A program made the translations under genes and the position numbers. The notes under the pieces were generated by a model that saw only the letters and a list, made by a program, of their open reading frames with translations, was not told the DNA's origin and did no database searches. Below are positions 18,363 through 47,619 of a DNA stretch of 64,000 nucleotides, in pieces. Each line of letters begins with the position of its first letter. Within the stretch, counting starts at the first letter, position 1. The DNA lies in contig MWDJ01000011.1 in NCBI GenBank assembly GCA_002070505.1, positions 1-64,000 of the forward strand, read 5' to 3'. This stretch comes from Bacteroidetes bacterium ADurb.Bin145 (GTDB lineage: Bacteria > Bacteroidota > Bacteroidia > Bacteroidales > VadinHA17).

Positions 18363-18450
18363 TACTTAGAGTACTTAAAGTTTTGGTTTCTTCTAACTCT
18401 AAGTACTCTAGGCACTCTAAGTACTTTAGGCACTTTAAATACTTTAAGTA
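18363..18450. repeat. 9-bp minisatellite, two inverted plus six direct units
   Basis: Six contiguous 9-bp units (18397-18450) follow the pattern CTYTARRYA, for example CTCTAAGTA, CTCTAGGCA and CTTTAAGTA. Two more units in inverse orientation occupy 18363-18380, separated by 16 bp. The array lies between two convergent genes and can pair into hairpins on either strand. Its last direct unit contains the stop codon of the GH95 gene (TAA on the minus strand at 18444-18446). Confidence 0.9.
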
Positions 18451-20894: not shown

Positions 20895-20967
20895 AGAAGT
20901 TATTTTTATTATATGGGTGAAAAGAATTATTTAAAATTTAATATGAGGCAAGTGTGTTTGTATAAAT

Positions 20968-24786: not shown

Positions 24787-24796
24787 TTTAAGTTAG

Positions 24797-27523: not shown

Positions 27524-27554
27524 ATTATTTTTTATTTGATTTTTTGCTTATAGA

Positions 27555-30212: not shown

Positions 30213-30284
30213 AATTACTTATTTTAATAATTTAAATACTGGATCAGGGTATTAAGAAGTTTTTTATCCCAGAAGAATGACGAT

Positions 30285-32699
30285 TTATTGCAATTCTTCA
30301 TTTATTCTAATAGAATTTCCTAAGGGAAGTTTAAATGTTTTGGTTTTTTCGCCGTAGCGTACAGTGAAAGGATTACCAAGCAGAGATTTGATATCGCATG
30401 CTTTTAATTTACCGTTTTCCCAGCTTATATTTATCTCAAATCCGCCTCTTGCCTTAAGCCCTGTCACAGAACCATTTTTCCAGCTGACCGGCAATGCAGG
30501 TAACAGGGAGATTTCACCTGCATGACTTTGTAAAAGGCATTCCGCAACACCAGCCGTAAATCCGAAGTTGGCATCCGACTGGTTACTTGACGGGTTATGC
30601 AGATTATTTCCTATTCCGCCTCTTGGCATCTGTGTACCAGGTATGTCTCTTCTTATTGGCGGGACACGGAAGAACTGCCGGATTGCTGTATCGGCTCTTA
30701 TGCCATTCTCAAGACGTGCCCAGTCGCAGATATCCCAGGCGCTTGGCCAGCCTAATCTTGAAACACGCGGTTCCAGCCATTTTTGGATTGCTGCAGCTAT
30801 TTCAGGATCCTTTCTCAACGTTATTGAATTACCGGGGAAGAATCCGAAGTTAGCAGACATATTGTGACCTTCATTGCCTCTTATCCAGTCCTCCAGCCAT
30901 ACCTGCAGAAGACCATCTTTACCGATCATATAAGGCGGTATCTGGTCAAGTGCTTTTTCAAGCATATCACTGAATTCCTTGTCGACATTCAGGATCTTTG
31001 CAGCCTCGATGCAGTGAGGGAAAAGGTCTTTAATCATACCGATGTTCATTGTTGTAGAGGGAGCAAGGAATGCCTCTTCAGCACCTTCTCTGACAAAGAA
31101 TCCCTGTTCAGGCGACATTGAGAACGGAATTACCAGGTAATTATATTTTGGTTCATATGTCATTATATCTGTCAGGAATTGTGCAGCCCCTTTCATAATG
31201 GGATAATACTCTTTCAGGAATTCCAGATCGCCTGTGTACAGATAATGTTCCCAGATATGCTGGCATAACCAAACACCTCCAACGGGCCACATCCCGTAGC
31301 GGGCTGCATCAACAGGTGCGGTACCGCGCCAAAGATCTGTATTATGATGAGCTACCCATCCTCCTGCATTGTAATATAATTTAGCTGTTTTAGCACCATT
31401 TTCCGAAAGATCTTTTATCAGGTTAAACAAAGGGGGTGTACATTCTGTCAGATTTGTTACCTCTGCCGGCCAGTAGTTCATCTCAGTGTTAATATTAATT
31501 GTGTATTTACTTCCCCAGTTAGGCAGCAGATCCTGATTCCATCTTGCCTGTAAATTAGCCGGTTCACTTCCGGCCCTGCTGCTTGAAACGAGAATGTAAC
31601 GACCGAACTGGAATATTTTGGATAGCAGTTCCGGATCGGAGAGTCCCTTTTTAAGGTCAGCAATTCTCACATCCGTAGGTTTTTCATTCATCATGGGATC
31701 GCCAATTTTAAGATGCACACGCCCCATCAATCCTGAGAAATCTTTCAGGTGGGTGTTTTTCAGGGTATTATAATCTTTGCCTGAAATATCCGATAAAATC
31801 TTTTCGCATTTAGCTGCAGGATCCCCGCTTATATCCTTATAATTAACAAAACTGGTGGCAATTATAAGTACAAATGTTACAGAATTGGAATTTGTGATCA
31901 CAAGGCTTGAATCAGTCGCTTCAAGTTTTCCTTTATCGGGTGTTGCAATTAGTGAAGTCTGAAATTTTGTACCAGGGCCATCGACTTTTGCAATGAGCCA
32001 GCTGTCGCTTTTCGGGAGATATTTCCAGGTACCATTCATAGTCAGCTTGTTATCCTTGGCGATTGATTCTTCAAGGAAAGGGCTTCTTAGTTTTGCCTCT
32101 ACAGAGACTTTTCCCGGTTTGTTTGCTGAGACTTTCATCACCATTGCATGATCGGGATATGACATGAAAATCTCCCGTGTCATCTTAACATTTCCGTCGG
32201 TATAGCTTATCTTAACAATACCGGTTTCCATATCCAGCTCACGGTAGTAGTCTTTTATTGAGTCTCCTGTTATCTTAAAGTCAAGAAGAAAGTCGCCTAA
32301 CGGCTGATAAGCCTGCTGAGCCGCCGGTATTCCATAAAAATGCTCGTCAGCCAGTTTTTCAGCTTCCTTGTATTTACCTGCAAATACAAGGTCTTTGATT
32401 TTATCAAAATATCTGTATGCTTCAGGATCGTTATAATCATGGGGTTTCCCGGACCAGAATGCAGATTCATTCAAAGCGATACGTTCATTGCGTACTTTTC
32501 CAAAAACGTTCGCTCCCATGTAGCCGTTCCCTATGAACATACCATCAAGCCAAACCTTTTCGGCGGGTTTGTCATACCATAGAACCATCTCTTTTGCTTC
32601 AGGCGGTTTTTGAGAGGAAGTTGAACAGGATGTTGGTATCATCAAAACAGCCATAATCAGAATGATAACTTCTCTCATGTGAAAAATAACTTTTTTCAT
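30285..32699 (-). CDS. Glycoside hydrolase family 95 lipoprotein, canonical active site
   Basis: An 804-residue lipoprotein (Cys25 in IPTSC). The catalytic set is intact: [11 protein letters not shown] carries the Asn pair, E531 lies in SMSPEQ and D709 in NQSDANFG. It is closely similar over its full length to the product of 38463-40841, including the same leader cysteine position, so the two are recent paralogues. It is the first gene of the five-gene minus-strand block. Its long upstream region contains a 20-bp element also found before susC, so co-regulation with the glycan importer is likely. Predicted action: removal of alpha-L-fucose or alpha-L-galactose in the periplasm. Confidence 0.93.
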   Translation of the reverse strand: MKKVIFHMREVIILIMAVLMIPTSCSTSSQKPPEAKEMVLWYDKPAEKVWLDGMFIGNGYMGANVFGKVRNERIALNESAFWSGKPHDYNDPEAYRYFDKIKDLVFAGKYKEAEKLADEHFYGIPAAQQAYQPLGDFLLDFKITGDSIKDYYRELDMETGIVKISYTDGNVKMTREIFMSYPDHAMVMKVSANKPGKVSVEAKLRSPFLEESIAKDNKLTMNGTWKYLPKSDSWLIAKVDGPGTKFQTSLIATPDKGKLEATDSSLVITNSNSVTFVLIIATSFVNYKDISGDPAAKCEKILSDISGKDYNTLKNTHLKDFSGLMGRVHLKIGDPMMNEKPTDVRIADLKKGLSDPELLSKIFQFGRYILVSSSRAGSEPANLQARWNQDLLPNWGSKYTININTEMNYWPAEVTNLTECTPPLFNLIKDLSENGAKTAKLYYNAGGWVAHHNTDLWRGTAPVDAARYGMWPVGGVWLCQHIWEHYLYTGDLEFLKEYYPIMKGAAQFLTDIMTYEPKYNYLVIPFSMSPEQGFFVREGAEEAFLAPSTTMNIGMIKDLFPHCIEAAKILNVDKEFSDMLEKALDQIPPYMIGKDGLLQVWLEDWIRGNEGHNMSANFGFFPGNSITLRKDPEIAAAIQKWLEPRVSRLGWPSAWDICDWARLENGIRADTAIRQFFRVPPIRRDIPGTQMPRGGIGNNLHNPSSNQSDANFGFTAGVAECLLQSHAGEISLLPALPVSWKNGSVTGLKARGGFEINISWENGKLKACDIKSLLGNPFTVRYGEKTKTFKLPLGNSIRINEELQ

Positions 32700-33379
32700 A
32701 TAGTTGTTTTTAAGTAATTTCTTCGCCAGTCAGTAAAACTGAAAATAGGTCGGATATAATTACAACTTTAAAAATGGACTGCCAAACTATTAAAATCATT
32801 TTGATTATAAAGAGCTGGATATTAATTTTCCAATAGTTAAAAATTTAAATTCTATTTATTCGGGGTTGTAAAGAATCATGAACCAGATTATTAATAAGAT
32901 TGTAACATTTGTTTTTAATTACAAGGTTTTCGCTTATTTCGCCCGTCTTCAACACCCCTTTTAAATAAAATTTTGCTTTCCCGGTAACTTTCTCGTATAA
33001 AATTATAATAAATATAATATATAGAACTATTAAAATTAATAAATTTAAAAATGCATAATCAATATATATCTAATTCATTTTTAATGTATAATCCGGTTAT
33101 GTAAACAGCGACCAATAAAATACATAACACATGAAAAAGTGGATTTCAAATGTGGTCATTATCAGGCAAATGCTTATATTCAATATTAAAACTACAATTA
33201 TTGATAAGATACTAATTTTGTTTTCAAACCTGATATCTATTATCAGAAATAATTTTGGTTTTGCATTTCAGCCGGCTGAATATTTCGGCTTTAAACAAAT
33301 AAATAACAATATTTTTATTAGCACTATTTGAGAGTTTATTATATAATGTAATATGTCAGAAATATTAAAATATACGAAT
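32700..33379. other. Divergent intergenic region with shared regulatory element
   Basis: This AT-rich stretch of 680 bp separates the minus-strand GH95 operon from the plus-strand GH97 gene. A short open frame at 33131-33331 has no recognisable product and is not called. The only distinctive signal is the 20-bp element at 32982-33001 shared with the susC upstream region. No clear TTTG/TAnnTTTG promoter pair was found by eye on either strand. The region is long enough to hold two promoters and long 5' leaders. Confidence 0.6.
32982..33001 (-). promoter_or_regulatory. Shared upstream element, copy A (before the GH95 operon)
   Basis: The plus-strand sequence CGGTAACTTTCTCGTATAAA matches copy B at 46129-46148 at 19 of 20 positions. 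Read on the minus strand it lies about 280 bp upstream of the GH95 start at 32699, in the same orientation as copy B relative to susC. It may be a binding site for the PUL regulator, perhaps the LacI-type protein encoded at 46319-47353, or part of a promoter. Confidence 0.55.
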
Positions 33380-35239
33380 ATGAAATCAATTAACAGAGGG
33401 ATGTTACTAATAAGCATATTTTGCTTTCTGAACCAGTGCGGTATTCAGAAGAAGGTGTCAGATGCAATTCAGGTCTACAGCCCTGATGGTAAAATATGTG
33501 TTGAAATGTTTAAAGGCACTGATTCTAAGCTTTTGTACAAAGTTACAGCCTCTGGAATGGAGATAATTACTCCTTCGAGGTTCGGAATTATAAGTGATAG
33601 TATTGATCTGGGTTCCAATATTACATTTGGATCAGTTGAGTCAGGGATGATTGATGAGACATATTCAGTTTTCGGTATTCATAATAAAGCAATTAATCGT
33701 TGTAATACTAAAACAGTTGAAGTTCGGACCGGAGGAGAGAAGTGGTTTCTTGATATACGCGCATATAATGATGGTGTTGCAGTTCGTAGCCGGCTTTCAG
33801 CTAAACCGGATCGTCATATCACAGGTGAAGTAACAGAATGGAAGCTACCGTCTAATACTCTATACTGGTATCAGACTGACCTTGTTTCCTATGAAGGAAC
33901 ATTTCAAAAAGTTTTAACAGACACTCTCGCATCCGATCAGATTATTGGACTGCCTGTAACTGCATTATTATCATCGGGTAAATATGCTTTATTAACAGAA
34001 GCCAATTTGGTTGATTATTCTGATCTTGCTGTTAAGTCAGGAGAAGGGGGGACGTTAAAAGGCTTTTTCCATGCAGAGGAAAAGGGATGGTTCACAAATG
34101 ACGAAGTTACTCAACCCTGGAGAGTAATCCTTATTCCGGATGATCTAAATGCTTTAGTCAATAGTGATTTGATACGAAATCTTTGTCCGCCACCTTCATC
34201 AGAATTGGTAAATGCAGACTGGATAAAACCTGGCCGCGCGGCATGGAACTGGTGGTCAACACCTGCACTTGTATATAACCAACAGCATCAATGGATTGAT
34301 TGGACAAAACAATTAGGCTTTGAGTTTTACCTGATTGATGCAGGTTGGACCCGGTGGCAAGAAGGTAATATGAATGCATGGGATTGCCTTACAGAGGTAG
34401 TCAGTTATGCAAAGTCTGTCGGAGTCGATATCTGGATCTGGCTTCATTCAAGGGAAGTTTCTAATGAAGCAGACCGTACAAGGATATTTGAAAATGCTGT
34501 AAAAGCTGGCGTGTCTGGACTTAAAATCGATTTTGTTCCAAAATGTACACGCGATTGGTCAAACTGGTATGAGGCGACATTGCGGGATGCTGCAAAAAAC
34601 AGGTTAATAATAGATTTCCATGGTCCCGTAAAGCCAACAGGACGTGAACGCACATGGCCAAATGAACTTACCCGGGAAGCCATCAGAGGTCATGAATACC
34701 ATATTAAAAGGTATAACCGGATACTGGAACCTGATCATGATTGTACTGTACCATTTAACCGGTTTGTACAGGGATTTGCCGATTACACACCGACTGTTTT
34801 TAATCCGTCCGAACTCCTGGGATATACCTGGACCCGTGAAATTGCTCAGGCAATAGTGTTTACATCACCATTTTTATGTTATGCCGATCACCCTGAAAAT
34901 TATTTGAAAAATCCGGCAGTTGATATAATAAAGTCTATTCCTTCAACCTGGGACGAAACCATTGTCCTGCAGGATAGTGAAATAGGAAAGTGTGCTGCGT
35001 TTGCCCGACGTAGTGCAAATACCTGGTTTATTGGTGTAATAAACGGCGGTGAAAATAAAAATATAAATATTCCTCTGAGATTTTTACAGGCAGGTTCTTA
35101 CAAGATGGATGCCTGTGAAGATGATCCTGATCGGGATGATGATATTAATAAATATGTAAGTACGGTTAGCCAGTCGGACAGTATTAAATTAACAATAAGA
35201 CCGAAAGGAGGTTTTGTGGCGAAATTAACCAGATTGTAA
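33380..35239 (+). CDS. Glycoside hydrolase family 97, retaining type (alpha-galactosidase-like)
   Basis: A 619-residue lipoprotein counted from the ATG at 33380, which gives a clean leader ending in LNQC; the ATG at 33353 would add nine residues. The N-terminal GH97 beta-sandwich starts VYSPDGKICVEMF. The barrel opens at RAAWNWWSTPALV and FYLIDAGWTRW. D384 in GLKIDF occupies the nucleophile position of retaining GH97 enzymes such as alpha-galactosidases; inverting SusB-type members lack it. A C-terminal beta domain follows. It is divergent from the GH95 operon and is followed by a decayed oxidoreductase on the other strand. Specificity for alpha-galactosides is inferred from this one residue class. 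Confidence 0.88.
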   Translation: MKSINRGMLLISIFCFLNQCGIQKKVSDAIQVYSPDGKICVEMFKGTDSKLLYKVTASGMEIITPSRFGIISDSIDLGSNITFGSVESGMIDETYSVFGIHNKAINRCNTKTVEVRTGGEKWFLDIRAYNDGVAVRSRLSAKPDRHITGEVTEWKLPSNTLYWYQTDLVSYEGTFQKVLTDTLASDQIIGLPVTALLSSGKYALLTEANLVDYSDLAVKSGEGGTLKGFFHAEEKGWFTNDEVTQPWRVILIPDDLNALVNSDLIRNLCPPPSSELVNADWIKPGRAAWNWWSTPALVYNQQHQWIDWTKQLGFEFYLIDAGWTRWQEGNMNAWDCLTEVVSYAKSVGVDIWIWLHSREVSNEADRTRIFENAVKAGVSGLKIDFVPKCTRDWSNWYEATLRDAAKNRLIIDFHGPVKPTGRERTWPNELTREAIRGHEYHIKRYNRILEPDHDCTVPFNRFVQGFADYTPTVFNPSELLGYTWTREIAQAIVFTSPFLCYADHPENYLKNPAVDIIKSIPSTWDETIVLQDSEIGKCAAFARRSANTWFIGVINGGENKNINIPLRFLQAGSYKMDACEDDPDRDDDINKYVSTVSQSDSIKLTIRPKGGFVAKLTRL

Positions 35240-35263
35240 TTGACCTTCAGTCTGTAATTATTT

Positions 35264-35595
35264 TCAATGTGAGAGATGCGAAGATTCACATTGCCATTCT
35301 GCTATCATGATCTTCACAGCCTCTTGAGAGGTCAGCTTCATCTTTTCTAAGTATTTCCTGTATTTTTTTACTTCCAGCTCTCTTGGGATTTTTTTCAATT
35401 TATAAGAAATAGCTGCAGCCACACCTGCAGCTTCCCCTATCCGTGCAGGACCACCTCCCATAACCAGTACATCTGTTTTAATAGTATTAGATCTCTTTTT
35501 TCTGATTATCTCAGGCGATTGAGTGATCTGCCTTTTAAGCCGCCTATTCCTAAAAGCGAGGCACCTGTTGCTGTCAAAAATTTTCTCCTTTTCAT
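35264..35595 (-). pseudogene. Remnant of an FAD-dependent oxidoreductase
   Basis: The minus strand from 35595 encodes a typical leader, MKRRKFLTATGASLLGIGG, that reaches a TAA at 35506-35508. A one-base frame change near 35515 restores the frame SPEIIRKKRSNTIKTDVLV, which leads into the Rossmann dinucleotide motif VMGGGPA. This is joined directly to RIGEAAGVAAAIS and about 40 more residues, which look like the C-terminal end of the FAD-dependent oxidoreductase family (PF12831) found in many PULs. So the N-terminal FAD loop is fused to the family's C-terminus with several hundred residues missing. Both a frameshift and an internal deletion are seen. It cannot make a working enzyme. Confidence 0.75.
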
Positions 35596-35938
35596 TTTAA
35601 TTAATATTGCATTAATAATCAGGTTTGTTTAAAGTTAAGTAAGAAAAAAAATGAACAGTTGGAAGGATATCAATTTCAGTCAGGTTTATTTTAACACAAA
35701 ACCAACCACTTAGTAACACAAATTTATCCATTTTCTCCCGGATTTTCAGATTAGTTCACTGTGTTAATATTCTCAGTACTTCAGGATAGGCTGTTCTTAT
35801 ACAACATTGTCAGCAAAGATTATCTATTATGATTAGTAATATATTGCCAACTTGCTTTTTAACAACGATATAGGTAAATTTATAAATTGTTGTAATTATT
35901 TGTCTAGTACTTAATTTGATTTATTAAAATACGATACT
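35596..35938. other. Intergenic region before the atypical GH95 gene
   Basis: This AT-rich stretch of 343 bp has no supported gene. It should contain the promoter for the plus-strand GH95 at 35939. TTTG (35899-35902) and TTAATTTG (35911-35918) resemble promoter elements, but their spacing is too short to call. The 20-bp PUL element is not present. Confidence 0.5.
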
Positions 35939-38365
35939 ATGCACGTTAAAATGTTTTTTCTGGTTTGTTTTAGTCTGGGTATTCAGTCACTCTGCTCTCA
36001 AAAGAATAATATAGAAGTTATACAGGATGAAATGTGCTGGTGGTATAATAAACCTGCAACAAAGTACTGGGAGGGACTCCCAATCGGAACCGGACGATTT
36101 GCGGGAATGGTATCTGGCAAAACGTCGGATGAAGTTATCCCTTTTAATGATGAAACTTTATGGACAGGGGGGCCTTATAATCCAAATAATCCGAATGGTC
36201 CTGAAATCTTAAAGAATATTCGAAAATATGCTTTAGAAAAAGATTGGGTAAACGCAGATAAAGAAGCTGAAAAACTCTCCAGCGATCCAATGAGTGTGCA
36301 ATACTATCAGCCAATGGGCCGGTTGCACATTCAATTTCCCGGACATGATGAGGGCAGAGTAGAAAAATATATCAGAAAATTAAGCATGGATAGTGCCATG
36401 GTTACTATTTCATATCAACTCGACGGTGTGGATTATAAAAGGGAAGTTTTTGCCAGTTACCCGGATCAGGTAATTGTGATGAGGTTAAAATCAAATAAGA
36501 AAGGTGCGATTGATATTAATGTGTGGTTGTCCAGTCTTCAACCGTCAGCAACAACCTATTTTGAAAACGATGTTATTGTAATTGAAGGCACAACAATTGA
36601 GAATACTGAAAACCCTTATAACTTAAGAATATTACCTGCACAAATGAAATGGCAATCGAAGGTGAAAATACTTCAGGAAGGTGGAAGTCTTACAAGAGGT
36701 TCGGGTGAGAACAGAAATAAAATCATTGTTAAAAATGCCAATGCAGTTACTTTAATCCTGGCAGGAGCCACGAATTGGAAAAACTGGAACGATGTCTCAG
36801 AAAATGAAAAAGACAAATGTGCGGAATACATTTCAAGAGCATCTCATTACACTTATCCTCAGCTTAAAGAACGACATTTAAAAGACTATTTACCCTTATT
36901 CCATACCTGTAAGATTGATTTAGGTAAGAATAGGAATTCAGAATTAAATACAACGCAAAGAATGGATAGGTTAAGGGCAGGTGAAAATGACCCGTTGTAT
37001 ATTTCACAATATTTTCAATATGGCCGGTATCTTTTGCTTGCAGGGGCCAGGGAAAATACACTGGCTTTTAATAATCACAACATATGGCTGGATGATCTTG
37101 AAGGACGGTGGAGAGGCAGATGGACATTAAACATTAATATTGAAGAATGCTACTGGCCTGTTGAAAGTACTAACCTGCCCGATATCAATGAATCTTTACT
37201 TCTCTTTGTCGAGAATTTAGCCGAAGCCGGAGCCAGAACAGCTAAAGAGTTATATGGCTGCCGGGGCTGGACAGCTCATCATGGAACAGATATATGGTTT
37301 AATACGGCGCCAACAGATGGGAATCCACAATATGCGACATGGCCCATGGGAGGGGCATGGCTTATGCAGCAATTATTTGATCATTATGAATATTGTTGCG
37401 ATACATCTTATCTTAAGAGGATATATCCCTTGCTGAAAGGGGCCACAGAATTTTTTCTTGATTTCTTAATGACGGACCCTGAAACCGGATGGCTTGTGAC
37501 ATGCCCGTCAACCACCCCAGAAAATAGTTTTGTTACTGATAAAGAGGGAATTTGCTCTATTTCAATGGGAACATCCATGGATAATCAACTCATACGCAAT
37601 CTCTTTAGAAACTGTATAACAGCATGCAAAGTACTAAATACAGACAGCGAACTAAGACAAAAGCTTGGAGATAATTTGATGAAGTTGCCTCCGCATCAGG
37701 TTGGACGATTTGGACAACTGCAGGAATGGTTGTATGACTTTAAAGAAGCAGAGCCCACCCATCGGCATTTATCGCATCTTTTTGCAGCATATCCTGATGA
37801 CGATATTACATTACGCAAAACACCTGAATTGGCACAAGCGGTTGGTGTAGTTCTGGAAAGAAGAGGGGACATAAATCTCGGGTGGTCAGGTGCATGGAAA
37901 ATAAACCTTCATGCAAGGCTGGAAGAGCCACAATCAGCATATAATATCCTGAAAAATATGTTAACAGAAGTAAGTCTTCATCCTAGACCAGAAGATAGCC
38001 AGATTACTCCTTCCTTTGAGGGAAATCAGGCAATCCAGGGGGTGACTGCCGGAATTACAGAGATGTTGATGCAAAGTCATTCTTCTGAAATATCACTTTT
38101 ACCTGCTTTGCCAGATGAATGGAAAAATGGCGGTATTCAGGGACTTGTCGCCAGGGGTGGTTACAACATAACTATCTTTTGGAATAGTGGTAAATTAACC
38201 AGGGCACTTATATTTTCAAAATTCAGCAATAGATGCAGAATCCGGACCAAAAGCAATGCAAAAATTCTCCTCGATGGTAAAGAAATAAAAACTTACAGTC
38301 CTGAACAGAATGTATTTGAGTTTAATACAGAAGCCGGGAAATTGTATGAGATTATGTCAGTTTAA
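35939..38365 (+). CDS. Glycoside hydrolase family 95 with altered base motif
   Basis: An 808-residue secreted protein with a signal peptide (about residues 1-20). The N-terminal sandwich starts MCWWYNKPATKYWEGLPIGT. The Asn pair is kept as N398 and N400 in LNINIEECYWP, and the acid as E528 in TTPENSF. The usual [QD]xDxNFG motif that carries the catalytic-base aspartate is replaced by FEGNQAIQG (E694), with two extra residues before the conserved TAGITEMLMQS helix, so no Asp sits at the expected place. This may change the substrate or the mechanism. It is on the plus strand, apart from the other GH95 genes, and converges with the GH95 at 38463. Confidence 0.87.
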   Translation: MHVKMFFLVCFSLGIQSLCSQKNNIEVIQDEMCWWYNKPATKYWEGLPIGTGRFAGMVSGKTSDEVIPFNDETLWTGGPYNPNNPNGPEILKNIRKYALEKDWVNADKEAEKLSSDPMSVQYYQPMGRLHIQFPGHDEGRVEKYIRKLSMDSAMVTISYQLDGVDYKREVFASYPDQVIVMRLKSNKKGAIDINVWLSSLQPSATTYFENDVIVIEGTTIENTENPYNLRILPAQMKWQSKVKILQEGGSLTRGSGENRNKIIVKNANAVTLILAGATNWKNWNDVSENEKDKCAEYISRASHYTYPQLKERHLKDYLPLFHTCKIDLGKNRNSELNTTQRMDRLRAGENDPLYISQYFQYGRYLLLAGARENTLAFNNHNIWLDDLEGRWRGRWTLNINIEECYWPVESTNLPDINESLLLFVENLAEAGARTAKELYGCRGWTAHHGTDIWFNTAPTDGNPQYATWPMGGAWLMQQLFDHYEYCCDTSYLKRIYPLLKGATEFFLDFLMTDPETGWLVTCPSTTPENSFVTDKEGICSISMGTSMDNQLIRNLFRNCITACKVLNTDSELRQKLGDNLMKLPPHQVGRFGQLQEWLYDFKEAEPTHRHLSHLFAAYPDDDITLRKTPELAQAVGVVLERRGDINLGWSGAWKINLHARLEEPQSAYNILKNMLTEVSLHPRPEDSQITPSFEGNQAIQGVTAGITEMLMQSHSSEISLLPALPDEWKNGGIQGLVARGGYNITIFWNSGKLTRALIFSKFSNRCRIRTKSNAKILLDGKEIKTYSPEQNVFEFNTEAGKLYEIMSV

Positions 38366-38462
38366 TTATTTGTTTGAAAGTTATAAGACGTTCTGTAAAC
38401 CCCCACACCAGAAATAAAAACAATTCAACGGGAACTGCTAGCAGAAAACTAGAATCCTTGAG

Positions 38463-40841
38463 CTAAGTACCTTCTATAACAATTGTTTCACCCTTAACCG
38501 GGCTATATTTTGTAGTTTTCCCGTCAACCCTGACAATACACGAATTTCCAAGCAATGACCTGATCTCTGCCTTTGTCAATTTTCCATCCTTCCATTCAAT
38601 ATCGACCTCAAATCCGCCTCTGGCTTTTAATCCAGTCACCAATCCGTTTTCCCAGGTTACAGGCAGTGCCGGTAGCAAAGAGATTTCACCTGCATGACTT
38701 TGCAGCAGGCATTCAGCAATACTTGCAGTCAATCCGAAATTTAAATCTGATTGATTAGCGACAGAATTGTGTAAATTATTTCCAATTCCTCCCCTGGTAC
38801 TAGGAGTGCGTAAGCAACCTCTCATAATTGAATCAGCTCTTAATCCGTTTTCAAGCCTTGCCCAGGAGCATATATCCCAGGTGCTGTTAAACCAATTTCT
38901 TGCAGGACGGGGGTCCAGCCATTTTTCAAGTGCTGCAGATAACTCCGGATTTCCCCTTAAGGTAATTGAGTTTCCCGGATAGAATCCAAACATTAACGAC
39001 TCGTTGTGAGATTCCTTGCCTCTTATCCAGTCTTCAATCCAGGTCTGAAGACGGCCGTCCTTACCTATCTGGTATGGTGGAATTTTTTCTAATGCCTTTT
39101 CGAGCTGATCTCCGAATTCCTTATCAACATTAAGAATCTTCCCTGCTTCAATGCAATGTGGGAAAAGATCTCTTATTATCCCGATATCCATTGTAGTTGA
39201 TGGAGATAAAAAGCATTCTTCAGCTCCCTCGCTGACAAAATAACCTTGTTCAGGAGACATTGAGAATGGTATTACCAACCATTTATACTTTGGATGTTCA
39301 ACCATAAGATCCATTAAGAACTGTGCAGAGCCTTTCATGATCGGATAGTACTCTCTAAGAAATTCGATGTCACCGGTATAAAGGTAATGTTCCCATATAT
39401 GCCGGCACAACCAACTTCCTCCGACCGGCCACATACCGTATCTGGCTGCGTCAACAGGAGCTGTGGCCCGCCATAGATCAGTATTATGATGGGCTACCCA
39501 GCCGTCCGCATTATAATATAATTTTGCTGTTTTAGCCCCGTTTTCAGCTAAATCCTTGATCATGTCAAACAATGGTATGTGGCACTCTGAAAGGTTTGTG
39601 ACTTCAGCCGGCCAATAGTTCATCTCAGTGTTGATGTTGATCGTATATTTACTTCCCCAGTTTCCAAGCTGTTCCTGATTCCATCGTGCCTGGAGATTTG
39701 CAGGTTCGCTGCCTGGCCTGCTGCTTGAAACCAGCATATAACGGCCAAACTGGAATAATTTACCGATAAGATTTGGATCCTGAAGGCCCTTCTTAAGGTC
39801 TGTAAGTCTCTCGTCAGTTGGTCTTTCATTCATCAGGGGATCCCCAATATCCAGGTGAACCCGCCCCATCAGATTGCTGAAATCATTTACATGCGTATTT
39901 TTTAGTTGTTTAAATTTTTTGCCTCTGACCCTTGCAAGAATTTCTTCACATTTTGCTGCAGGATCTCCGCTAATATCAGTGTAATTAACATAGCTGGTTG
40001 CTGCGGTAAGGATGAATGTCACGGAATTTGCGTCAGTAACAATTAAACTCGAATCGGTTGCCAGGAGGCTTCCCTTTTCAGGCAGGGCAACAATATCTGT
40101 CTGAAACCTGAGACCTGTTCCTTCTACTTTTGCAACAAGCCAGTTTTCGGTAAGGGAAAGATATCTCCATATACCATTTATTGTTAACCTGCTGTCGTTT
40201 GTGGTTGTTTGCTCGGTAAAAGGGCTCGCTAACTTTGCCTCAACAGATACACGGCCTGGTTTATCAGCTGACACTTTCATTACCATCACATGGTCAGGGT
40301 AAGACATAAATACCTCGCGGGTCATCTTCACATCTCCATCAGTGTAACAGATTTTAACAATACCGGTTTTCATATTTAGTTCACGATAGTAATCACTGAT
40401 GGAATCACCGGTTACCTTGAAATTCAGTAAAAGATCTCCAAGAGGCGCATATGCTTGAAGTGCCGTAGGTCTACCATAGAAGTGTTCATCCACAAGTATC
40501 TCCGCTGCCTTGAATTTCTCTGCGAAGACAAGTTCCTTGATCTGATCAAAGTACTTAAAGGCATCAGGATCGTTATGATCATGGGGCCTTCCGGACCAGA
40601 ATGTGGATTCATTTAAAGCGATTCTCTCGTTCTGTACTCTTCCAAAAACATTTGCACCCATATAACCATTCCCGATGAGTAATCCATCATGCCACACCTG
40701 ATCGGCGGGTTTATTATACCAGGCGACCATATTTTTCTCCTCCGGAGACTTTTGAGTGGAATATGAACACGAAGTCGGCAGGATAAAAGCAGCCATCAAT
40801 GCGACGAACATAATGTTGATCAAAGTAGTTGAATTTTTCAT
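38463..40841 (-). CDS. Glycoside hydrolase family 95 lipoprotein, canonical, downstream of susD
   Basis: A 792-residue lipoprotein (Cys25 in LPTSC) with all GH95 residues: the Asn pair in [12 protein letters not shown]531 in SMSPEQ and D699 in NQSDLNFG. It closely resembles the product of 30285-32699 throughout. It follows susD by 129 bp on the same strand, but an apparent intrinsic terminator lies in that gap, so expression is probably lower than that of susCD or set by read-through. In the PUL it would remove alpha-L-fucosyl or alpha-L-galactosyl caps from imported oligosaccharides. Confidence 0.93.
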   Translation of the reverse strand: MKNSTTLINIMFVALMAAFILPTSCSYSTQKSPEEKNMVAWYNKPADQVWHDGLLIGNGYMGANVFGRVQNERIALNESTFWSGRPHDHNDPDAFKYFDQIKELVFAEKFKAAEILVDEHFYGRPTALQAYAPLGDLLLNFKVTGDSISDYYRELNMKTGIVKICYTDGDVKMTREVFMSYPDHVMVMKVSADKPGRVSVEAKLASPFTEQTTTNDSRLTINGIWRYLSLTENWLVAKVEGTGLRFQTDIVALPEKGSLLATDSSLIVTDANSVTFILTAATSYVNYTDISGDPAAKCEEILARVRGKKFKQLKNTHVNDFSNLMGRVHLDIGDPLMNERPTDERLTDLKKGLQDPNLIGKLFQFGRYMLVSSSRPGSEPANLQARWNQEQLGNWGSKYTININTEMNYWPAEVTNLSECHIPLFDMIKDLAENGAKTAKLYYNADGWVAHHNTDLWRATAPVDAARYGMWPVGGSWLCRHIWEHYLYTGDIEFLREYYPIMKGSAQFLMDLMVEHPKYKWLVIPFSMSPEQGYFVSEGAEECFLSPSTTMDIGIIRDLFPHCIEAGKILNVDKEFGDQLEKALEKIPPYQIGKDGRLQTWIEDWIRGKESHNESLMFGFYPGNSITLRGNPELSAALEKWLDPRPARNWFNSTWDICSWARLENGLRADSIMRGCLRTPSTRGGIGNNLHNSVANQSDLNFGLTASIAECLLQSHAGEISLLPALPVTWENGLVTGLKARGGFEVDIEWKDGKLTKAEIRSLLGNSCIVRVDGKTTKYSPVKGETIVIEGT

Positions 40842-40863
40842 AATTGGTAATTGTTGATTCCCT

Positions 40864-40924
40864 GATAAAAACTGGCCAGCCCGAATTTAACTTTCCGTTT
40901 CAGGCTGAGACCCAGGCTGGCCAG
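40864..40924 (-). terminator. Intrinsic terminator between susD and GH95
   Basis: Perfect 10-bp inverted arms, CTGGCCAGCC (40872-40881) and GGCTGGCCAG (40915-40924), are separated by 33 bp. On the minus strand the second arm is followed by TTTTTATC. The structure lies 47 bp after the susD stop codon. The long loop is atypical, but the GC-rich arms and U-tract fit a terminator or attenuator that separates susCD from the next GH95 gene. Confidence 0.7.
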
Positions 40925-40970
40925 AAAACTTATTTCCACTCAATAACAAGCATTCAACTGGCTAAATGGT

Positions 40971-42677
40971 CTAATCATAACCAGGATTTTGATCTATCTG
41001 AGGGTTACGTTGTCTCTCATCCTGTGCAATGGGAAGGAGACTCTGATAATCCTTAAATGTATTCGACCTGTCAAGCAATACTACCTTTTCATACCTTTTA
41101 ACGCCGGTCGACTTATTCAAATAAATATCGTACGTTGTAATCTTTGCATTTTCGACTGTGGTAGCTATTTTCCAACGCCTGACATCAAAGAACCGGTGAT
41201 TTTCAAATGCCAGTTCTATCCTTCTTTCATTATAAATTCTTCTCCTCAGGTCCTCCCCGGTAACAGTGGCAGGGATGTCTGGCAGGTTAACACTTGCTCT
41301 TCTTCTTACTTTATTTACATACTCTCTGGCCGTAACTTCATCGCCCAGCTCAAACTTTGCTTCGGCATAATTCAGGTATATTTCGGCGATCCTGAAAAAC
41401 GGCCATTGTATTGTGAACTGTGTTTGCCAGTTAAAAGGACCCTGTTCAGGCATGAACTTCAGGAGTACCGTATTTGTTCTGGGATTGTCACCCGTGGCTT
41501 TATATGAATCATAGCCCCAGGAAGCACCATCTTCAGCAATCCACATCTCAAAATGGTCTCCCCGGAAATACATATCATCATGCAGAATAGTAGCTTCAAA
41601 CCGGGGATCACGATTCTTGAAAGGTTGGGTTGGATCATAGCCTGAAGCAGGATTAACAGATCCATCGGGCAGGAATGCCGGTTCCCCGTTGATCATGTCG
41701 TAACTATCAATCAGGTTCGCGGAAGGCCCGTTACTGCCCCACCATCCTCCATAACCTTCATAACGACGGTTGAAATTATGCATGGGTCCCTGATGACCGT
41801 TGGCGGTGGTAAAGCCCCTGGAAAATATCACTTCATCATTGGCGGCACCCTGTGACATTTGAAAAAGCTTATTGTAATCAGAATACAAAGCGAAACCTTT
41901 GTTTAACAGAGCTTCTGCGGCATCAGCGGCTTTCTGCCATTTTTGCTGGCTTTTTGTAGGACTGAATAAAGGGGAAGCTGCATAGAGATACACACGGGAA
42001 AGCAGAGCCTGGCAGACAACACCTGAAGCCCTTCCGTATTTAGCATCCGTGGATGAGTACTTATCCGGCAAAACTGCTTTGGCCGCAGTAATATCCTGTT
42101 CAATAAAAGTCACGCATTCATCAAAGGTACTTCTCGTAAATTGTACTTCATCGCCGAGTTGATAAACCTCGTCGACGATCGGTACTCCGCCAAACCTTTC
42201 AATGAGATTGAAATAAATGAAGGCTCTTAAGAACCTTGCTTCTCCAATCAATTGGTCTTTATCATTCATTTGAACATCGCTTTCCTGCATTTTACTCAGG
42301 AAAACATTAATCTTGCGAATATACTCATACGCACGATCCCAGTAATACATGTAACCGCTGCCTGAAGCCCAGAATCCAGTACCACCTCCTGCCTCTGCAA
42401 TATTGTCGGGAGTATATGTATTGAGTTTAAATAGATTGGCTCCGCAGCATGGGGCATTGTTAAAAGCTTCATCAGTATATTTTGAATACATATGAATGAA
42501 AAATCCGTGCGGTACCGCGTTATAAAGTTCGGTATGGTAAGCACGTATAAGGTTTGGATCACTCCACACGGCATCTTCAGCAATACGATCCTGAGGTGAA
42601 ATATCCAGTATATTCTCACAGGAAATACTGAACAGTATAAGTAATATTACTGGTATTATTATTTTTATCGTTTTCAT
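40971..42677 (-). CDS. susD: SusD/RagB-family glycan-binding lipoprotein
   Basis: A 568-residue outer-membrane lipoprotein. The ATG at 42677 gives the leader ending at Cys20 (FSISC); a longer frame to 42716 would overlap susC and is not preferred. Family features are SCENILDISPQDRIAEDAVW at the mature N-terminus, TPR-like helices such as GEARFLRAFIYFNLIERFGG, and the C-terminal RRIYNERRIELAFENHRFFDVRRW. It forms the lid of the SusC importer and binds oligosaccharide at the cell surface. The start is 13 bp after the susC stop, so the two genes are cotranscribed. SusD sequences do not predict the glycan. Confidence 0.95.
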   Translation of the reverse strand: MKTIKIIIPVILLILFSISCENILDISPQDRIAEDAVWSDPNLIRAYHTELYNAVPHGFFIHMYSKYTDEAFNNAPCCGANLFKLNTYTPDNIAEAGGGTGFWASGSGYMYYWDRAYEYIRKINVFLSKMQESDVQMNDKDQLIGEARFLRAFIYFNLIERFGGVPIVDEVYQLGDEVQFTRSTFDECVTFIEQDITAAKAVLPDKYSSTDAKYGRASGVVCQALLSRVYLYAASPLFSPTKSQQKWQKAADAAEALLNKGFALYSDYNKLFQMSQGAANDEVIFSRGFTTANGHQGPMHNFNRRYEGYGGWWGSNGPSANLIDSYDMINGEPAFLPDGSVNPASGYDPTQPFKNRDPRFEATILHDDMYFRGDHFEMWIAEDGASWGYDSYKATGDNPRTNTVLLKFMPEQGPFNWQTQFTIQWPFFRIAEIYLNYAEAKFELGDEVTAREYVNKVRRRASVNLPDIPATVTGEDLRRRIYNERRIELAFENHRFFDVRRWKIATTVENAKITTYDIYLNKSTGVKRYEKVVLLDRSNTFKDYQSLLPIAQDERQRNPQIDQNPGYD

Positions 42678-42690
42678 AATCACACTTATT

Positions 42691-45600
42691 TTAAAAATTG
42701 ACATTAATACCAACATTTATAATCCTTAGAGGCGGATAGGTCCCAAATGAGCCGTTAATTTCCGGATCTCTCCATGTAATTTCTTTAGCCCATGTAAGTA
42801 AATTAGTGCCACTTACAAATACACGGACGTCATTAAGACCTATTCTTTTAGAAAGATTATTCCCCAGGCTGTATCCAAGTTCAAGGTTTTTAATTCTGAT
42901 AAACGTGGCTTCGTAAAGGAAGAAATCTGTAGTTCCGGGTTGCACGGCATCTGCCCTGGGCATGGTAGCGCCCTCCTGATTGTCCTTGGTCCAGCGGTTG
43001 GTTGCCCGGTAAACGGTATTATTATCAAGATTTGTCCGTGCAAATGATTCAAGTCCACCATCATAGGTCCAGGCATTGGTTTGTCCCTGGAAATACAGGA
43101 TCAGATCAAATCCTTTGTATTGCAGATTTGTAGTAAGACCAAATACATATTCCGGAATTGGAGAACTATTGGTCATATACCGGTCATTTCCAGTTATTTT
43201 ACCGTCTTTATTCAGGTCAACTAAAAAGATATCGCCCACCTGAGCTCCGTTGGCGTGCGGGTAATTGGCATACTCTTCCTGGGTGTTGATAATACCATCA
43301 GACTTGTAATAAAGCCCTGATCCAAGTGGATGTCCGGTTTGTGCCATATAAGGTTCAGCCGGCGGCACTTCGTCCATGAATATTATCTTACTTCTGGCAA
43401 AAGATACGTTTGCATTCACTGAATAGGTCAATTGTCTAACAGTGTTACGGTGAGTCAGCATCAGTTCAAATCCATGATTCTTCACCTCCCCGATATTTTG
43501 GTCGGGTAATGCGGGAAATCCGAACACATGACTTACCGAAAGGACAGGCTGGAGAAGGATGTTGGATCTTGTTTCACTGAATATTGTCACTTCAGCACCA
43601 AGCAACCTGTTCCAGAGAGAAGCTTCCAGTCCAAAGTCCATTTTCTTACTGACCTCCCAGGTAATATCCGGGTTGGGCAATCTGCTGGAGTATATGCCCG
43701 GCGAATCTTTGCCGCCGAAAACATAATTGTTACCAAACTGGAAAGCCTGCAGGTATTGGTATGCAGGTACCCGGTCGTTACCCAACTCGCCATACGAACC
43801 TCTGAGTTTCAATTCATCTACGAATGGCAGATTGTCTTTAATGAAGTTTTCTTCAGACAGTCTCCATCCCGCTGAAACTGCGGGGAAGAATCCATATCTT
43901 TTTCCTTTCGGAAAAATCTGTGAACCATCGTAACGGAATACAAATTCTACCAGGTATTTGGATTTGAAATCATAATTCAGACGTCCAAAAAAGTTATTGT
44001 AGGCACTCTCCGAAGCGCTTCCACCGGTTTCGGCATCAGTCGCACTCGTACTTCCTACATTGATCTGTGGGATAACTGCACTGACGAAATTCTTCCGGTA
44101 GGCCATTGCATAACTATAGTTCGCCTTCTGTTGCTCAGTTCCCAACATAGCAGAAATATTATGGTTTTCCGCGATTGTTCTTCTATATGAGATCCTGAAA
44201 TTGAACAGGGAGTTTGTCCACCTGCTGTATGTGTCCCTTACTTCGATAGGTTGAATAGTCCAGAACATATCATATTGCTTGGTTATAACGTTGTACTCAT
44301 GATACCAGGCTGGTTTGCCGAAATTCTTCTGGAACTGATTTCTTAAATCGTAATTGTAGGAAGCATCCAGTGTAAGGCCCCGAACGAATGGCACTTTATA
44401 TGAGGCCGTAAACGTTGATTGTAAAGGATAATTTTTAATTTCATTAAATCCCCTCCGGTCTGACAGCAGAGAACTCTGACGGAAACGTCCGGGAGCAATC
44501 AATCCGTTGGGATATATGGCCACCACCGTTGGGTTTGACAATAATATACTGGCAAAGTCAGTTCCAACTGATGCATGTCGGTTAGAGGGAATAGCACTAA
44601 TATTCGCACCAACAGTTAAATTATCCGATAAATCAACATCAACTTTTACTCTTGCATTATAACGCTTATAGCTGTCGTCAACATGTACATAATTACCACC
44701 CTGATCTGACGCACCGAAAGAGAGAAGATACCTGACATTATTTGATCCTCCGCTTACCTGGAGATTTGCATTTTGCTGAATCGCCCAATTTCTTGTTGAT
44801 ACATCACTCCAGTCGGTATTTGGGTATAAAATGGGATCGGAGCCGTCACGGTATTTCTGAATGGCTTCATCTGAATAGAATGGAACGAAACCAGTGGCCG
44901 GCCGGCCTTGTCTGTACCACTCAGCTTCATTATATGATTCTGCAAATACGACCGCATCCTCCATATCCGGGTTTATTGTAGGCTGATTAATAGCGTAATT
45001 GTAAGTCAGGTTGAACTTAGGGTTGATTTGAGATCCCTGTTTTGTGGTAATCAAGATTACTCCGTTGGCTGCCCGGGCACCATAAATGGCTGCTGAAGCA
45101 TCTTTCAATACCGTTATACTTTCAATATCTTGTGCATTAAGATCTTGTAAAGTATTATCACGTGGCACACCATCAATGACTACCAGAGGATTATTATCGT
45201 TAAAAGTACCCGATCCACGGATCAATATACTTAGATTTTCAGCTCCGGGCTGTCCTGTACGCTGGTTTATAACCAAGCCAGGAAGTTTCCCCGCCAGCGA
45301 GGTAGTAACGTTTACCGAAGGACTTTTAACTATCTCCGCACCTTCGACTTTAGAAATCGATCCCGTCATGGTTTCCTTTTTTTGAGTACCGTACCCAACT
45401 ACAACAACTTCTTCCAGTCCTGTAGTTTCAGATATCAGTGCTACATCAAGAGTTGTTCTGCCGGATACATTTACCTCCTGGGTCGTATATCCAATAAATG
45501 AGAACACCAGTATAGCAGATCCGTCAGGGACATTTATTGTATACGTTCCGTCAGCAGAGCTGGTAGCTCCGGTATTTGTTCCTTTAACTACAACGGTTGC

Positions 45601-45795
45601 TCCAACCAAAAGCTCTCCGGTATTGGAGTCAGTTACTTTACCCCTGACCTGAAGTTGCTGCAGGTCATTAGCTCCATTTGCGTTTACCTGTAAAAGGTTT
45701 AAGCAGGAGACTACCAGGGCAAGGTTCATAGTTAAAAGAAATCTTTTTATTCCCGTTTTAATCAGAGGGAAATAACACAGAAGATTTTTTTTCAT
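42691..45795 (-). CDS. susC: SusC/RagA-family TonB-dependent outer-membrane transporter
   Basis: A 1034-residue outer-membrane beta-barrel importer of oligosaccharides. After a signal peptide (about residues 1-40) it has a carboxypeptidase D regulatory-like domain (VRGKVTDSNTGELLVGATVV, about 49-130), then the plug domain beginning EEVVVVGYGTQKK. The SusC-specific segment KDASAAIYGARAANGVILIT lies at about 220-240. The barrel ends NVGINVNF with the expected terminal Phe. No STN domain is seen at the N-terminus, so regulation by an ECF sigma/anti-sigma pair is unlikely. The upstream gene is a LacI-type regulator. The leader contains two hairpins and an upstream 20-bp element shared with the GH95 operon. 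Confidence 0.96.
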   Translation of the reverse strand: MKKNLLCYFPLIKTGIKRFLLTMNLALVVSCLNLLQVNANGANDLQQLQVRGKVTDSNTGELLVGATVVVKGTNTGATSSADGTYTINVPDGSAILVFSFIGYTTQEVNVSGRTTLDVALISETTGLEEVVVVGYGTQKKETMTGSISKVEGAEIVKSPSVNVTTSLAGKLPGLVINQRTGQPGAENLSILIRGSGTFNDNNPLVVIDGVPRDNTLQDLNAQDIESITVLKDASAAIYGARAANGVILITTKQGSQINPKFNLTYNYAINQPTINPDMEDAVVFAESYNEAEWYRQGRPATGFVPFYSDEAIQKYRDGSDPILYPNTDWSDVSTRNWAIQQNANLQVSGGSNNVRYLLSFGASDQGGNYVHVDDSYKRYNARVKVDVDLSDNLTVGANISAIPSNRHASVGTDFASILLSNPTVVAIYPNGLIAPGRFRQSSLLSDRRGFNEIKNYPLQSTFTASYKVPFVRGLTLDASYNYDLRNQFQKNFGKPAWYHEYNVITKQYDMFWTIQPIEVRDTYSRWTNSLFNFRISYRRTIAENHNISAMLGTEQQKANYSYAMAYRKNFVSAVIPQINVGSTSATDAETGGSASESAYNNFFGRLNYDFKSKYLVEFVFRYDGSQIFPKGKRYGFFPAVSAGWRLSEENFIKDNLPFVDELKLRGSYGELGNDRVPAYQYLQAFQFGNNYVFGGKDSPGIYSSRLPNPDITWEVSKKMDFGLEASLWNRLLGAEVTIFSETRSNILLQPVLSVSHVFGFPALPDQNIGEVKNHGFELMLTHRNTVRQLTYSVNANVSFARSKIIFMDEVPPAEPYMAQTGHPLGSGLYYKSDGIINTQEEYANYPHANGAQVGDIFLVDLNKDGKITGNDRYMTNSSPIPEYVFGLTTNLQYKGFDLILYFQGQTNAWTYDGGLESFARTNLDNNTVYRATNRWTKDNQEGATMPRADAVQPGTTDFFLYEATFIRIKNLELGYSLGNNLSKRIGLNDVRVFVSGTNLLTWAKEITWRDPEINGSFGTYPPLRIINVGINVNF

Positions 45796-45830
45796 ATTTT
45801 TGCAAAGTTTTTAGAAGTTTAATATACCAC

Positions 45831-45848
45831 GGCCTGCTAAAGGAGGCC
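45831..45848 (-). other. Small leader hairpin before susC
   Basis: GGCCT (45831-45835) pairs with AGGCC (45844-45848). The minus-strand loop region reads CCTCCTTTAG, which resembles the 3' end of 16S rRNA. It sits 36-53 bp upstream of the susC start codon and may be part of a structured mRNA leader. Function is unknown. Confidence 0.45.
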
Positions 45849-45873
45849 TCATTAGGAAATTTTTAAAAACCCG

Positions 45874-45899
45874 ACGCAGGGTGTTGCAGCATCCTGCGT
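45874..45899 (-). terminator. Terminator-like hairpin in the susC leader
   Basis: Perfect 7-bp arms, ACGCAGG (45874-45880) and CCTGCGT (45893-45899), enclose a 12-nt loop. On the minus strand the stem is followed by CGGGTTTTT, and on the plus strand directly by TTTTT. Placed 79-104 bp before the susC start, it could attenuate susC transcription or end an antisense RNA coming from the other strand. Nothing else on the plus strand here needs a terminator. Confidence 0.6.
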
Positions 45900-46128
45900 T
45901 TTTCATTATAGTTTTAATTTCTCATAGGCAGATGGATTTAGGTTATTACTAGGGTTAATTATTTATTACAATTTTAACGCCTATATTCAGTATCGCGTCC
46001 GAACCTGAGCTTTAACCTGAAAAGGGATCATGGTAGTTTGCGTGATTATGTAAATTCCCAAAAAGCCAGTAATACTTTTCTTTCATGAGTTTACTTTCGT
46101 TTTGAAAAAACTCAAAACTTCAATTACG

Positions 46129-46148
46129 CGGTAACTTTCTCGTGTAAA
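46129..46148 (-). promoter_or_regulatory. Shared upstream element, copy B (before susC)
   Basis: The plus-strand sequence CGGTAACTTTCTCGTGTAAA differs from copy A (32982-33001) at one position. It lies about 335 bp upstream of susC in the same orientation. In this copy the minus strand also shows an imperfect dyad, TTACACG-N10-CGCGTAA, which would suit a dimeric regulator; copy A keeps only one half of it. Confidence 0.55.
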
Positions 46149-46318
46149 TCTAACACATTTTTTTTTAAAATGCAATAGATCAGGAGAAAAAAGCTTTGAT
46201 TATCAATAATACAGCTTATAATGTGATTGTACTTTCACAGGGCGTAGTCTGACTTATGTATAGGAATCGTATAATTCAGAGATTTACAAGGATATCTTAT
46301 TTTGAAAGCATTTCTGCT

Positions 46319-47353
46319 TCAGGACAGGATTGATTGTTTTTTTAGGATCGAAGTATTCCATTGAAAATCTACTTCAATAAGTATTTCAGTATGAGAATTC
46401 TGTGAAATGCCCTGAATTTCATCAATCAATAAATTTGCGGCTATTCTCCCCATTTTTCTCGGATCCTGGTTGATAATTGACAAAGTCGGACTAAATAAGT
46501 GGGCTGTATCACTGAAGCCATAACCTAAAATGCCGATATCATGAGGAATTTTTAATCCTGTCTTTCTTATTGCTTTGTATGCACCTGAAGCAACACGATC
46601 ATTAACAGCCAGAATGATTTCAGGTAATTTTCCGGTAGCCCATAATTTTTCAAATGCCCTTATACCATCATCAATCTCATAACCTCCTTCGATTATCCAT
46701 TCTTCCCTGATTGGGATGCCGTTACTTATCAGCGCTTCCTTATAACCGGCGCATCGCTCACTGCCAATGCTAGTACTTGAAAACCCGGCAAAATGGGCAA
46801 TTTTGGTATAACCACCTGCAATTAATTGATTAATAGCCTCTTTAGTGGCGATTTTATCATTAAAAGCAACATAACTGAAATTCAAATCCTTGATAGCACG
46901 ATCAAAAAATACAAGAGGAATTTTCATTTTGCGGGCATATTTAAATACCTTCTGATCGGATGTTTGTTGTGAAACGCAAACAAGAAGACCGTCCACACGC
47001 ATCCCGATCAAATTCATAATATTATTCCTCTCAAAAGCTTCTTTTTCCCGGGATACCGTTAGGATAATATGATAATTATGTTCAGTAGCTGTGTCAATTA
47101 TACTATCAACAAGATATGCAAAAAAGCAATTCTCCAGGTCTGGTACGACAATACCCAATGTGAAGGTTTTCTGAAGTGATAATTGTTTAGCAATGAGATT
47201 TGGAGAATATCCCATCCTTTCAACAGCTTTAATAATCCTTTCCTTCATTCCCGCAGATATGTCAGGATGATTTCTCAATGCTTTTGAAACAGTAATACGT
47301 GATACTTTTAACTTGTCGGCTATATCCTGTTGAGTTATATGATTTCTTTTCAT
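46319..47353 (-). CDS. LacI/GalR-family transcriptional regulator
   Basis: A 344-residue regulator counted from the ATG at 47353; a TTG at 47368 also opens the frame. The N-terminal helix-turn-helix reads ITQQDIADKLKVSRITVSKA with the hinge helix YSPNLIAKQLSLQK. A periplasmic-binding-like effector domain follows, starting FTLGIVVPDLENCFFAYLV. It is the only transcription regulator in the PUL and lies directly upstream of susC and at the end of the nine-gene hydrolase block. It probably senses a sugar released from the glycan. LacI-type PUL control is less common than hybrid two-component or sigma/anti-sigma systems. Its operator has not been identified with certainty. Confidence 0.93.
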   Translation of the reverse strand: MKRNHITQQDIADKLKVSRITVSKALRNHPDISAGMKERIIKAVERMGYSPNLIAKQLSLQKTFTLGIVVPDLENCFFAYLVDSIIDTATEHNYHIILTVSREKEAFERNNIMNLIGMRVDGLLVCVSQQTSDQKVFKYARKMKIPLVFFDRAIKDLNFSYVAFNDKIATKEAINQLIAGGYTKIAHFAGFSSTSIGSERCAGYKEALISNGIPIREEWIIEGGYEIDDGIRAFEKLWATGKLPEIILAVNDRVASGAYKAIRKTGLKIPHDIGILGYGFSDTAHLFSPTLSIINQDPRKMGRIAANLLIDEIQGISQNSHTEILIEVDFQWNTSILKKQSILS

Positions 47354-47619
47354 TTTATTAGTTAACAATTACTTTAATAACCCAATACAAAAATATAATT
47401 TCCCTAAGACTTTCAAATTGACATTCTTCATATCCAACAGTAAAAATTCAGACATAACGGCCTATGCCTGAATTGGACAGAGATGCCGAAGCTATTCGTA
47501 CTTTTACCGATGAGCTGGGTCTGACTCTAAAAATATATTAGAATAACTGATATAAAGAGCCCTTTACTCTGTCAACAATCAGAGATCAAATAAATCAGAA
47601 TAAGTGTTATTTCTACACT

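Follow-up and report, generated by a model that had tools for sequence, protein, structure and literature searches.

The locus and its repeated element

The window analysed here is the first 64,000 nucleotides (forward strand) of contig MWDJ01000011.1, from assembly GCA_002070505.1 of Bacteroidetes bacterium ADurb.Bin145, and it contains two transcription units of a polysaccharide utilisation locus (PUL), both on the minus strand, that have a 20-base element in common upstream of their first genes. The first unit begins with susC (42691-45795) and susD (40971-42716), together spanning 40971-45795, and probably includes the glycoside hydrolase family 95 (GH95) gene that follows susD (38463-40841, minus strand). 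The second unit (18444-32699) consists, in order, of three GH95 genes (30285-32699, 27555-30212 and 24797-27523), a GH3 gene (20968-24786) and a further GH95 gene (18444-20894), with gaps of 10-73 bp. Upstream of susC, and also on the minus strand, is a gene for a LacI-family regulator (46319-47368) that has orthologs in five other genomes, and its product is the likely binder of the element.

The element is at 32982-33001 (CGGTAACTTTCTCGTATAAA) and 46129-46148 (CGGTAACTTTCTCGTGTAAA) on the plus strand, and reads TTTAYACGAGAAAGTTACCG on the minus strand, which is that of both downstream genes. The first-pass annotation had claimed a match at 19 of 20 bases, in one orientation and about 280 and 335 bp from the genes. 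The match is indeed 19/20, the distances to the start codons are 283 bp (GH95 operon) and 334 bp (susC), and 100 shuffled versions of the window gave no match to the element at three or fewer mismatches.

A pattern scan of the whole genome (3,954,725 bases in 218 contigs), again allowing three mismatches, gave three matches, of which two are the window copies, without mismatch, and the third (C2:98414) has three mismatches and is within an open reading frame (ORF). The first-pass annotation had seen nothing comparable by eye in other intergenic regions; the genome has just these two copies, and the sequence model described below found no third strong site on the 218 contigs of this assembly, which is 92.5% complete. 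Partial matches at C2:98414, C15:34918 and C11:82674, and a model match at C3:148301 (E 0.29), all lie within ORFs of this genome and were rejected. In the organism's own family, 117 genomes of which were scanned at up to two mismatches, the only match beyond this genome is in G014; it lacks the CG of unit 1 (see below), lies at converging ORF ends and is taken as chance. An intergenic match to CGGTAACTTTC at C103:2717-2727 of this genome (G000) is 57 bp from an ORF start; with a distance of 10 bp between its CG steps and no counterpart in the model output, it was not accepted as a site. It is perhaps a site for another regulator.

Local alignment of the susC and GH95-operon upstream regions gave, as its best result, exactly these 20 bases, so the element is not part of a longer duplication. 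As the first-pass annotation had stated of the surrounding sequence, the flanks do not align. The conserved site continues for 4-8 bases past the 20-mer towards the genes, to 46121 and 32974. The 20-mer is thus one complete unit (unit 1) and only part of a second (unit 2).

A site that accompanies a LacI-family regulator

The regulator gene is annotated from a TTG codon, and alignment suggests a start at an ATG at 47353. The protein matches PF00356 at 45.7 bits (cut-off 27), and PF00532 and PF13377 above their cut-offs. In the LacI family a leucine of the hinge helix enters the minor groove at the centre of the operator, and we take L63, invariant in all nine regulator proteins aligned, to be this leucine by alignment with LacI.

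A search of 393 genomes of the order with the regulator, at E 1e-60 or better, found 14 genomes: this one, G371, G424 and G174 at 57-67% identity, and ten at 35-38%. The family of G424 (12 genomes) provided two more orthologs, in G509 (58%) and G511 (54%), and that of G371 (3 genomes) no further one. We use the term ortholog for these five relatives at 54-67% identity, of which the G174 gene is cut by a contig end; a distant relative (31%) from a search of genome contigs was not used.

In all five other genomes with an ortholog, the DNA immediately 5' of lacI contains a version of the site. G424 has 16 matches to the 15-base core of the site, only one of them with a single mismatch, and that one is 20 bp from lacI.

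A sequence model was built from eight sites and run on the six regulator-bearing genomes, and then on the 393 genomes of the order. In the six genomes it recovered all eight sites used to build it, and one further site scored strongly, at G174 C557:4312-4339 (E 5e-4); this further site is some 77 bp 5' of the start of a GH29 alpha-L-fucosidase gene and has a promoter -7 box (TAACTTTG) in register. This is the only site that tests the model, because the others match it by construction. There were also five weak matches (E 0.29-0.95), including C6:39086 in this genome and one each in G424, G509 and G511. In the order, at E up to 0.01, matches were found in five genomes, namely the four with an ortholog (six places) and G411. 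The model is thus matched in 4/4 order genomes with an ortholog and in 1/389 without one, and the G411 match sits in the low-complexity start of an ORF that is peptidase-like by its sequence. This larger scan had stricter filters, with 19 candidates scored per genome, and may miss weak sites.

The motif is therefore not widespread in unrelated places. Since the site travels with the LacI ortholog across genomes, the comparative evidence makes it very probable that the element serves as operator for the neighbouring regulator (46319-47368), and the earlier proposal of an operator for the PUL regulator is supported.

Two units, a putative -7 box and 12-bp spacing

The full site consists of two abutting 12-bp units, with CGnGwAA occurring twice, 12 bp apart. 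An ungapped alignment of the eight sites, of which G511 contributes two, reads roughly TTTACnCGnGwAAGTTnnCGnGwAAGTA, with 13 of its 28 columns invariant, namely T3, two CGnGnAA sets 12 apart, and the GT that follows the first set. A single unit is roughly TTWCnCGnGWAA, centred on a CG that is invariant in both units of all eight sites. When the units were compared at lags of 9-15, agreement was best at 12 (mean 7.4/12 bases), with 1.75 to 4.9 at the other lags. All eight aligned sites, and also the site found later, have the second unit at 12 bp. For susC, unit 1 is at 46136-46147 (TTACACGAGAAA) and unit 2 at 46124-46135 (GTTACCGCGTAA); for the GH95 operon they are at 32989-33000 (TTATACGAGAAA) and 32977-32988 (GTTACCGGGAAA), all on the minus strand and with unit 2 partly beyond the 20-mer in both cases. 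The longest array seen is 5' of lacI in G511 (C410:10449-10500), where there are four units in a row with a 12-bp period.

The primary promoter of Bacteroidota has a -7 element TANNTTTG, with the start 4-5 nt further on, and a -33 element TTTG; in F. johnsoniae the -7 consensus is TAHHTTTG and the -33 box is much less evident (PMC6847099). The TTT at the 5' edge of our site is preceded by TA at a fixed offset, to give TAnnTTT[A/G], in 8/8 promoters (seven, with G511 counted once, and an eighth found later), and TA is present in at most 3/8 at each of the 27 other offsets counted. The product of the local TA frequencies is 2.1e-9, a figure that ignores kinship. By its sequence this 5' edge is a putative -7 box of Bacteroidota type (TAnnTTTR), at 46145-46152 for susC (TAGATTTA, the TTTA of which is common to operator unit 1) and at 32998-33005 for the GH95 operon (TAATTTTA), both on the minus strand. 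The alternative offered in the first-pass annotation, an unrecognised promoter element, was thus partly right as well. With 4-5 nt from box to start, the predicted transcription starts are within unit 1, near 46140 and 32993, so that binding of a protein at the site should be incompatible with that of RNA polymerase.

The sequence V(S/T)RITVSKAL is present in 6/6 proteins (this regulator and the five orthologs), with an identical recognition helix, RITVSKAL, and four more distant relatives have (I/V/L)S(A/P/V)STVSRAL instead. In E. coli LacI the choice of operator is set by residues Tyr17 and Gln18, and the difference between RITVSKAL and xSTVSRAL falls at these residues. Relatives of the xSTVSRAL type, where a site is visible, have a different operator, GCAAWCGWTTGC, and in some of them this half-site is repeated at a distance of 12 bp, for example CGCAAACGnnnnCGCAAACGATTGC; the sites of these relatives comprise a full CG-centred palindrome and one extra half-site at 12 bp. 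As the second unit changes together with the half-site of the regulator, it is simplest to suppose that one regulator uses both units.

We looked at this spacing in 30 upstream regions, those of L021 and its best-scoring relatives, being the 30 top-scoring loci from a search with matches in 150/393 genomes, and counted CG-anchored repeats of at least 8/10 at distances of 6-40. At a distance of 12 there are repeats in 10/30 regions, and none in the other 20, with 14 in all at the 34 other distances and no more than three at any one. When the three regions that prompted the idea are left out, 7/27 have a repeat at 12, and the 34 other distances together have 12 (Fisher p 2.7e-7, not corrected for kinship); the 27 include at least two genes seen before (L126 and L136), both without a repeat. 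Five genera and four families are represented among the seven regions with a repeat. There is no excess at 12 bp among the best 30 PF00356 loci, with 2/30 at 8/10 or better (one of the two a gene already seen) and also 2/30 at 27 and at 33 bp; 21 of these 30 are from a third subfamily (GTVDRVLH/GTVDRVIH-like), and the region of L097 was misplaced in the count. Pairs of ATCGTTTGC up to 30 bases apart occur at 10 places in the 393 genomes, three of them at 12 bp and two of those three in one genus, which is weak evidence.

On these counts 12-bp spacing is also preferred in a related LacI subfamily whose half-site is different. More tentatively, a large clade of LacI-type regulators in the order could have a second unit exactly 12 bp away as a regular part of the operator, with half-sites that differ by subfamily and binding unlike that of canonical dimers, and with the array doubling as a promoter in the subfamily of our window, although as a generalisation we regard this as doubtful. 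If it is true, binding may involve a third half-site held by a higher oligomer, or staggered dimers on unwound DNA, or an array such as the four-unit site.

Proposed function and relation to known systems

The genes at these loci give some indication of the inducer. In G371, lacI is the first gene of an operon that continues with fucP, genes for an aldo/keto reductase, an amidohydrolase and an alcohol dehydrogenase, and a GH29 gene; FucP passes the NCBI cut-off (304 bits against 280), and the amidohydrolase scores 285 bits as L-fucono-1,5-lactonase, under the cut-off of 400. In G174 there is a site at the alpha-L-fucosidase gene, and in our genome the sites are at the susCD-GH95 unit and at the operon of four GH95 genes and one GH3 gene. 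GH95 includes alpha-1,2-L-fucosidases and alpha-L-galactosidases. Given the fucose genes at the G371 and G174 loci and the GH95 units here, the inducer is likely to be fucose-like.

We suggest, with a probability of about 0.8, that the element is a double operator of the 46319-47368 regulator placed on a -7 box, and that it provides for repression and fucose-related induction of both units. We infer repression, rather than activation, from the position of the site. Without inducer the bound repressor would cover roughly -8 to +17 and exclude RNA polymerase. L-fucose or a breakdown product of a fucoside, the most likely inducer, would release it and so allow transcription of the susCD-GH95 unit and the GH95/GH3 unit. 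The two units may serve as two registers for one dimer, as sites for a dimer and an extra half-site, as a 24-bp site for one dimer, or as sites for a higher oligomer.

There are several points against this proposal. In this genome there is a site 3' of lacI, ahead of susC, and one ahead of the GH95 operon, but none 5' of lacI itself, and the sites in G371 and G174 have 4/15 bases unlike those of the core and were found by inspection of the DNA 5' of lacI and not by pattern search. The units are only partial palindromes, with 3-5/6 pairs matching about the CG in unit 1 and 2-4/6 in unit 2. With regard to the promoter, only 2/8 of the -7 boxes end in G, no common -33 box is visible by eye, and the G at -10 (third position) in the susC box is unusual with respect to the TAHHTTTG consensus (PMC6847099). 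The predicted leaders of about 345 nt (susC) and 294 nt (GH95) are long; that to lacI in G424 would be 28 nt. Finally the neighbours in G424 (epimerase, GH27, GH42 and GH101) and in G511 (epimerase, cytidylyltransferase-like, ROK, URO-D and TonB receptor) do not point to fucose.

The alternative that survives best, though we think it unlikely, is that one dimer binds a single 24-bp palindrome centred on the AG between the CG steps, with the 12-bp repeat as a by-product. Between 6 and 10 of the 12 pairs of such a palindrome match in the eight sites, with 10/12 in G371, but tandem palindromes will always generate a third between them. LacI-family operators are even palindromes with a CG centre, as in 1173 of 1303 motifs surveyed (PMC4052901), and neither the four-unit row in G511 nor the relatives with a CG-centred palindrome and an extra half-site 12 bp off fit well with a centre at AG.

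It is a good deal less probable that the site belongs to another regulator, such as a hybrid two-component system (HTCS) or an activator of the SusR type. The predicted HTCS and SusR motifs of PULs are also direct repeats ahead of susC-like genes, but these are other protein families and their centre spacings are about 21 bp and 67 or 77 bp respectively (PMC3878776), as against a period of 12 here; a site over the -7 box is moreover in the position expected for a repressor, and it accompanies the LacI ortholog in 6/6 genomes. We give still less weight to the element being merely an extended promoter motif for a sigma factor, with the regulator acting elsewhere: the -7 box at its 5' edge in 8/8 promoters would suit this, but a promoter motif should be common, and the model finds two strong sites in this genome and gives no match in 388 of the 389 genomes of the order that lack an ortholog, while conservation runs about 20 bp past the -7 box, beyond the likely start point. 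Chance likeness or the remnant of a recent duplication, which the presence of only two copies in the genome might have suggested, is refuted by the recurrence of the site 5' of orthologous genes in five other genomes; the shuffled windows and the failure of the flanks to align also speak against it.

Some features of the leaders and of the adjoining DNA may be recorded. Between the likely start and susC there is a GC-rich hairpin with T runs nearby (45870-45905), which is terminator-like on the plus strand only (12 pairs in the scan), since on the minus strand CGGG stands between the stem and a run of five T. Such a hairpin could act either in attenuation or as a terminator of antisense transcription. 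The susC leader also has a 24-residue ORF on the minus strand at about 46012-46086 (MKEKYYWLFGNLHNHANYHDPFSG), with no Pfam match at 0.001; by eye it is reminiscent of the start of PHP-type hydrolases. No Rfam family was found at the gathering score in 32600-46400, and the folding z-scores of the leaders are -1.62 and -0.32. In the glycosidase block, the ORFs at 50696-51829 (377 aa) and 60611-63328 (905 aa) have no Pfam match at 1e-5. Beyond the window the contig continues at 64001-85678 with a nine-gene block (L010, L011) that includes genes for an arabinofuranosidase, GH43, GH127, an esterase, SusD and the end of a SusC-like gene; the last runs past the contig end (C11:85678), so its promoter is off the contig.

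With regard to known systems, the kind of site is known already, as LacI-family double sites about 13 bp apart have been described upstream of 110 operons, with E. coli GntR at gntKU as a tested case (PMC4052901, section 9). In the authors' view such spacing does not agree easily with the structures, and they propose that these sites are bound in a special way that involves partial unwinding (PMC4052901). Our sites resemble these in that two CG-centred sites stand closer together than two canonical dimers would allow and are conserved among orthologs. They differ from what is described there in the spacing of 12 and not 13 bp, in its presence in every site of the ortholog group, in the four-unit array seen once, in the fusion to a -7 box, and in the half-site and regulon (PMC4052901). 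These, and the recurrence in a second subfamily, are what the present comparison would add. CytR is likewise a LacI-family protein that uses direct repeats of half-sites, but those are octamers, the direct ones with 1-bp spacers, the spacing is variable and the operators lie between CRP sites (PMC3454398), whereas the period here is fixed at 12 bp.

Local sugar regulators of Bacteroides include KdgR, UxaR, UxmR and UxuR, of the LacI family, and FucR, of the GntR family, which controls fucose use; in the table of that study the four LacI regulators serve uronates, the fucose regulator is of the other family, and there is no LacI-type regulator for fucosides (PMC3878776). Literature searches of titles and abstract openings found no LacI-type fucose regulator of Bacteroidota and no 12-bp LacI double site in that phylum.

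If the proposal is correct, the window would provide a PUL repressor that these literature searches did not bring up, with a small regulon and an operator open to testing, and the fusion of operator and -7 box would give a rule for finding LacI targets from sequence. It may also offer a clean case for the published puzzle of LacI-family double sites that are too close for two dimers (PMC4052901).

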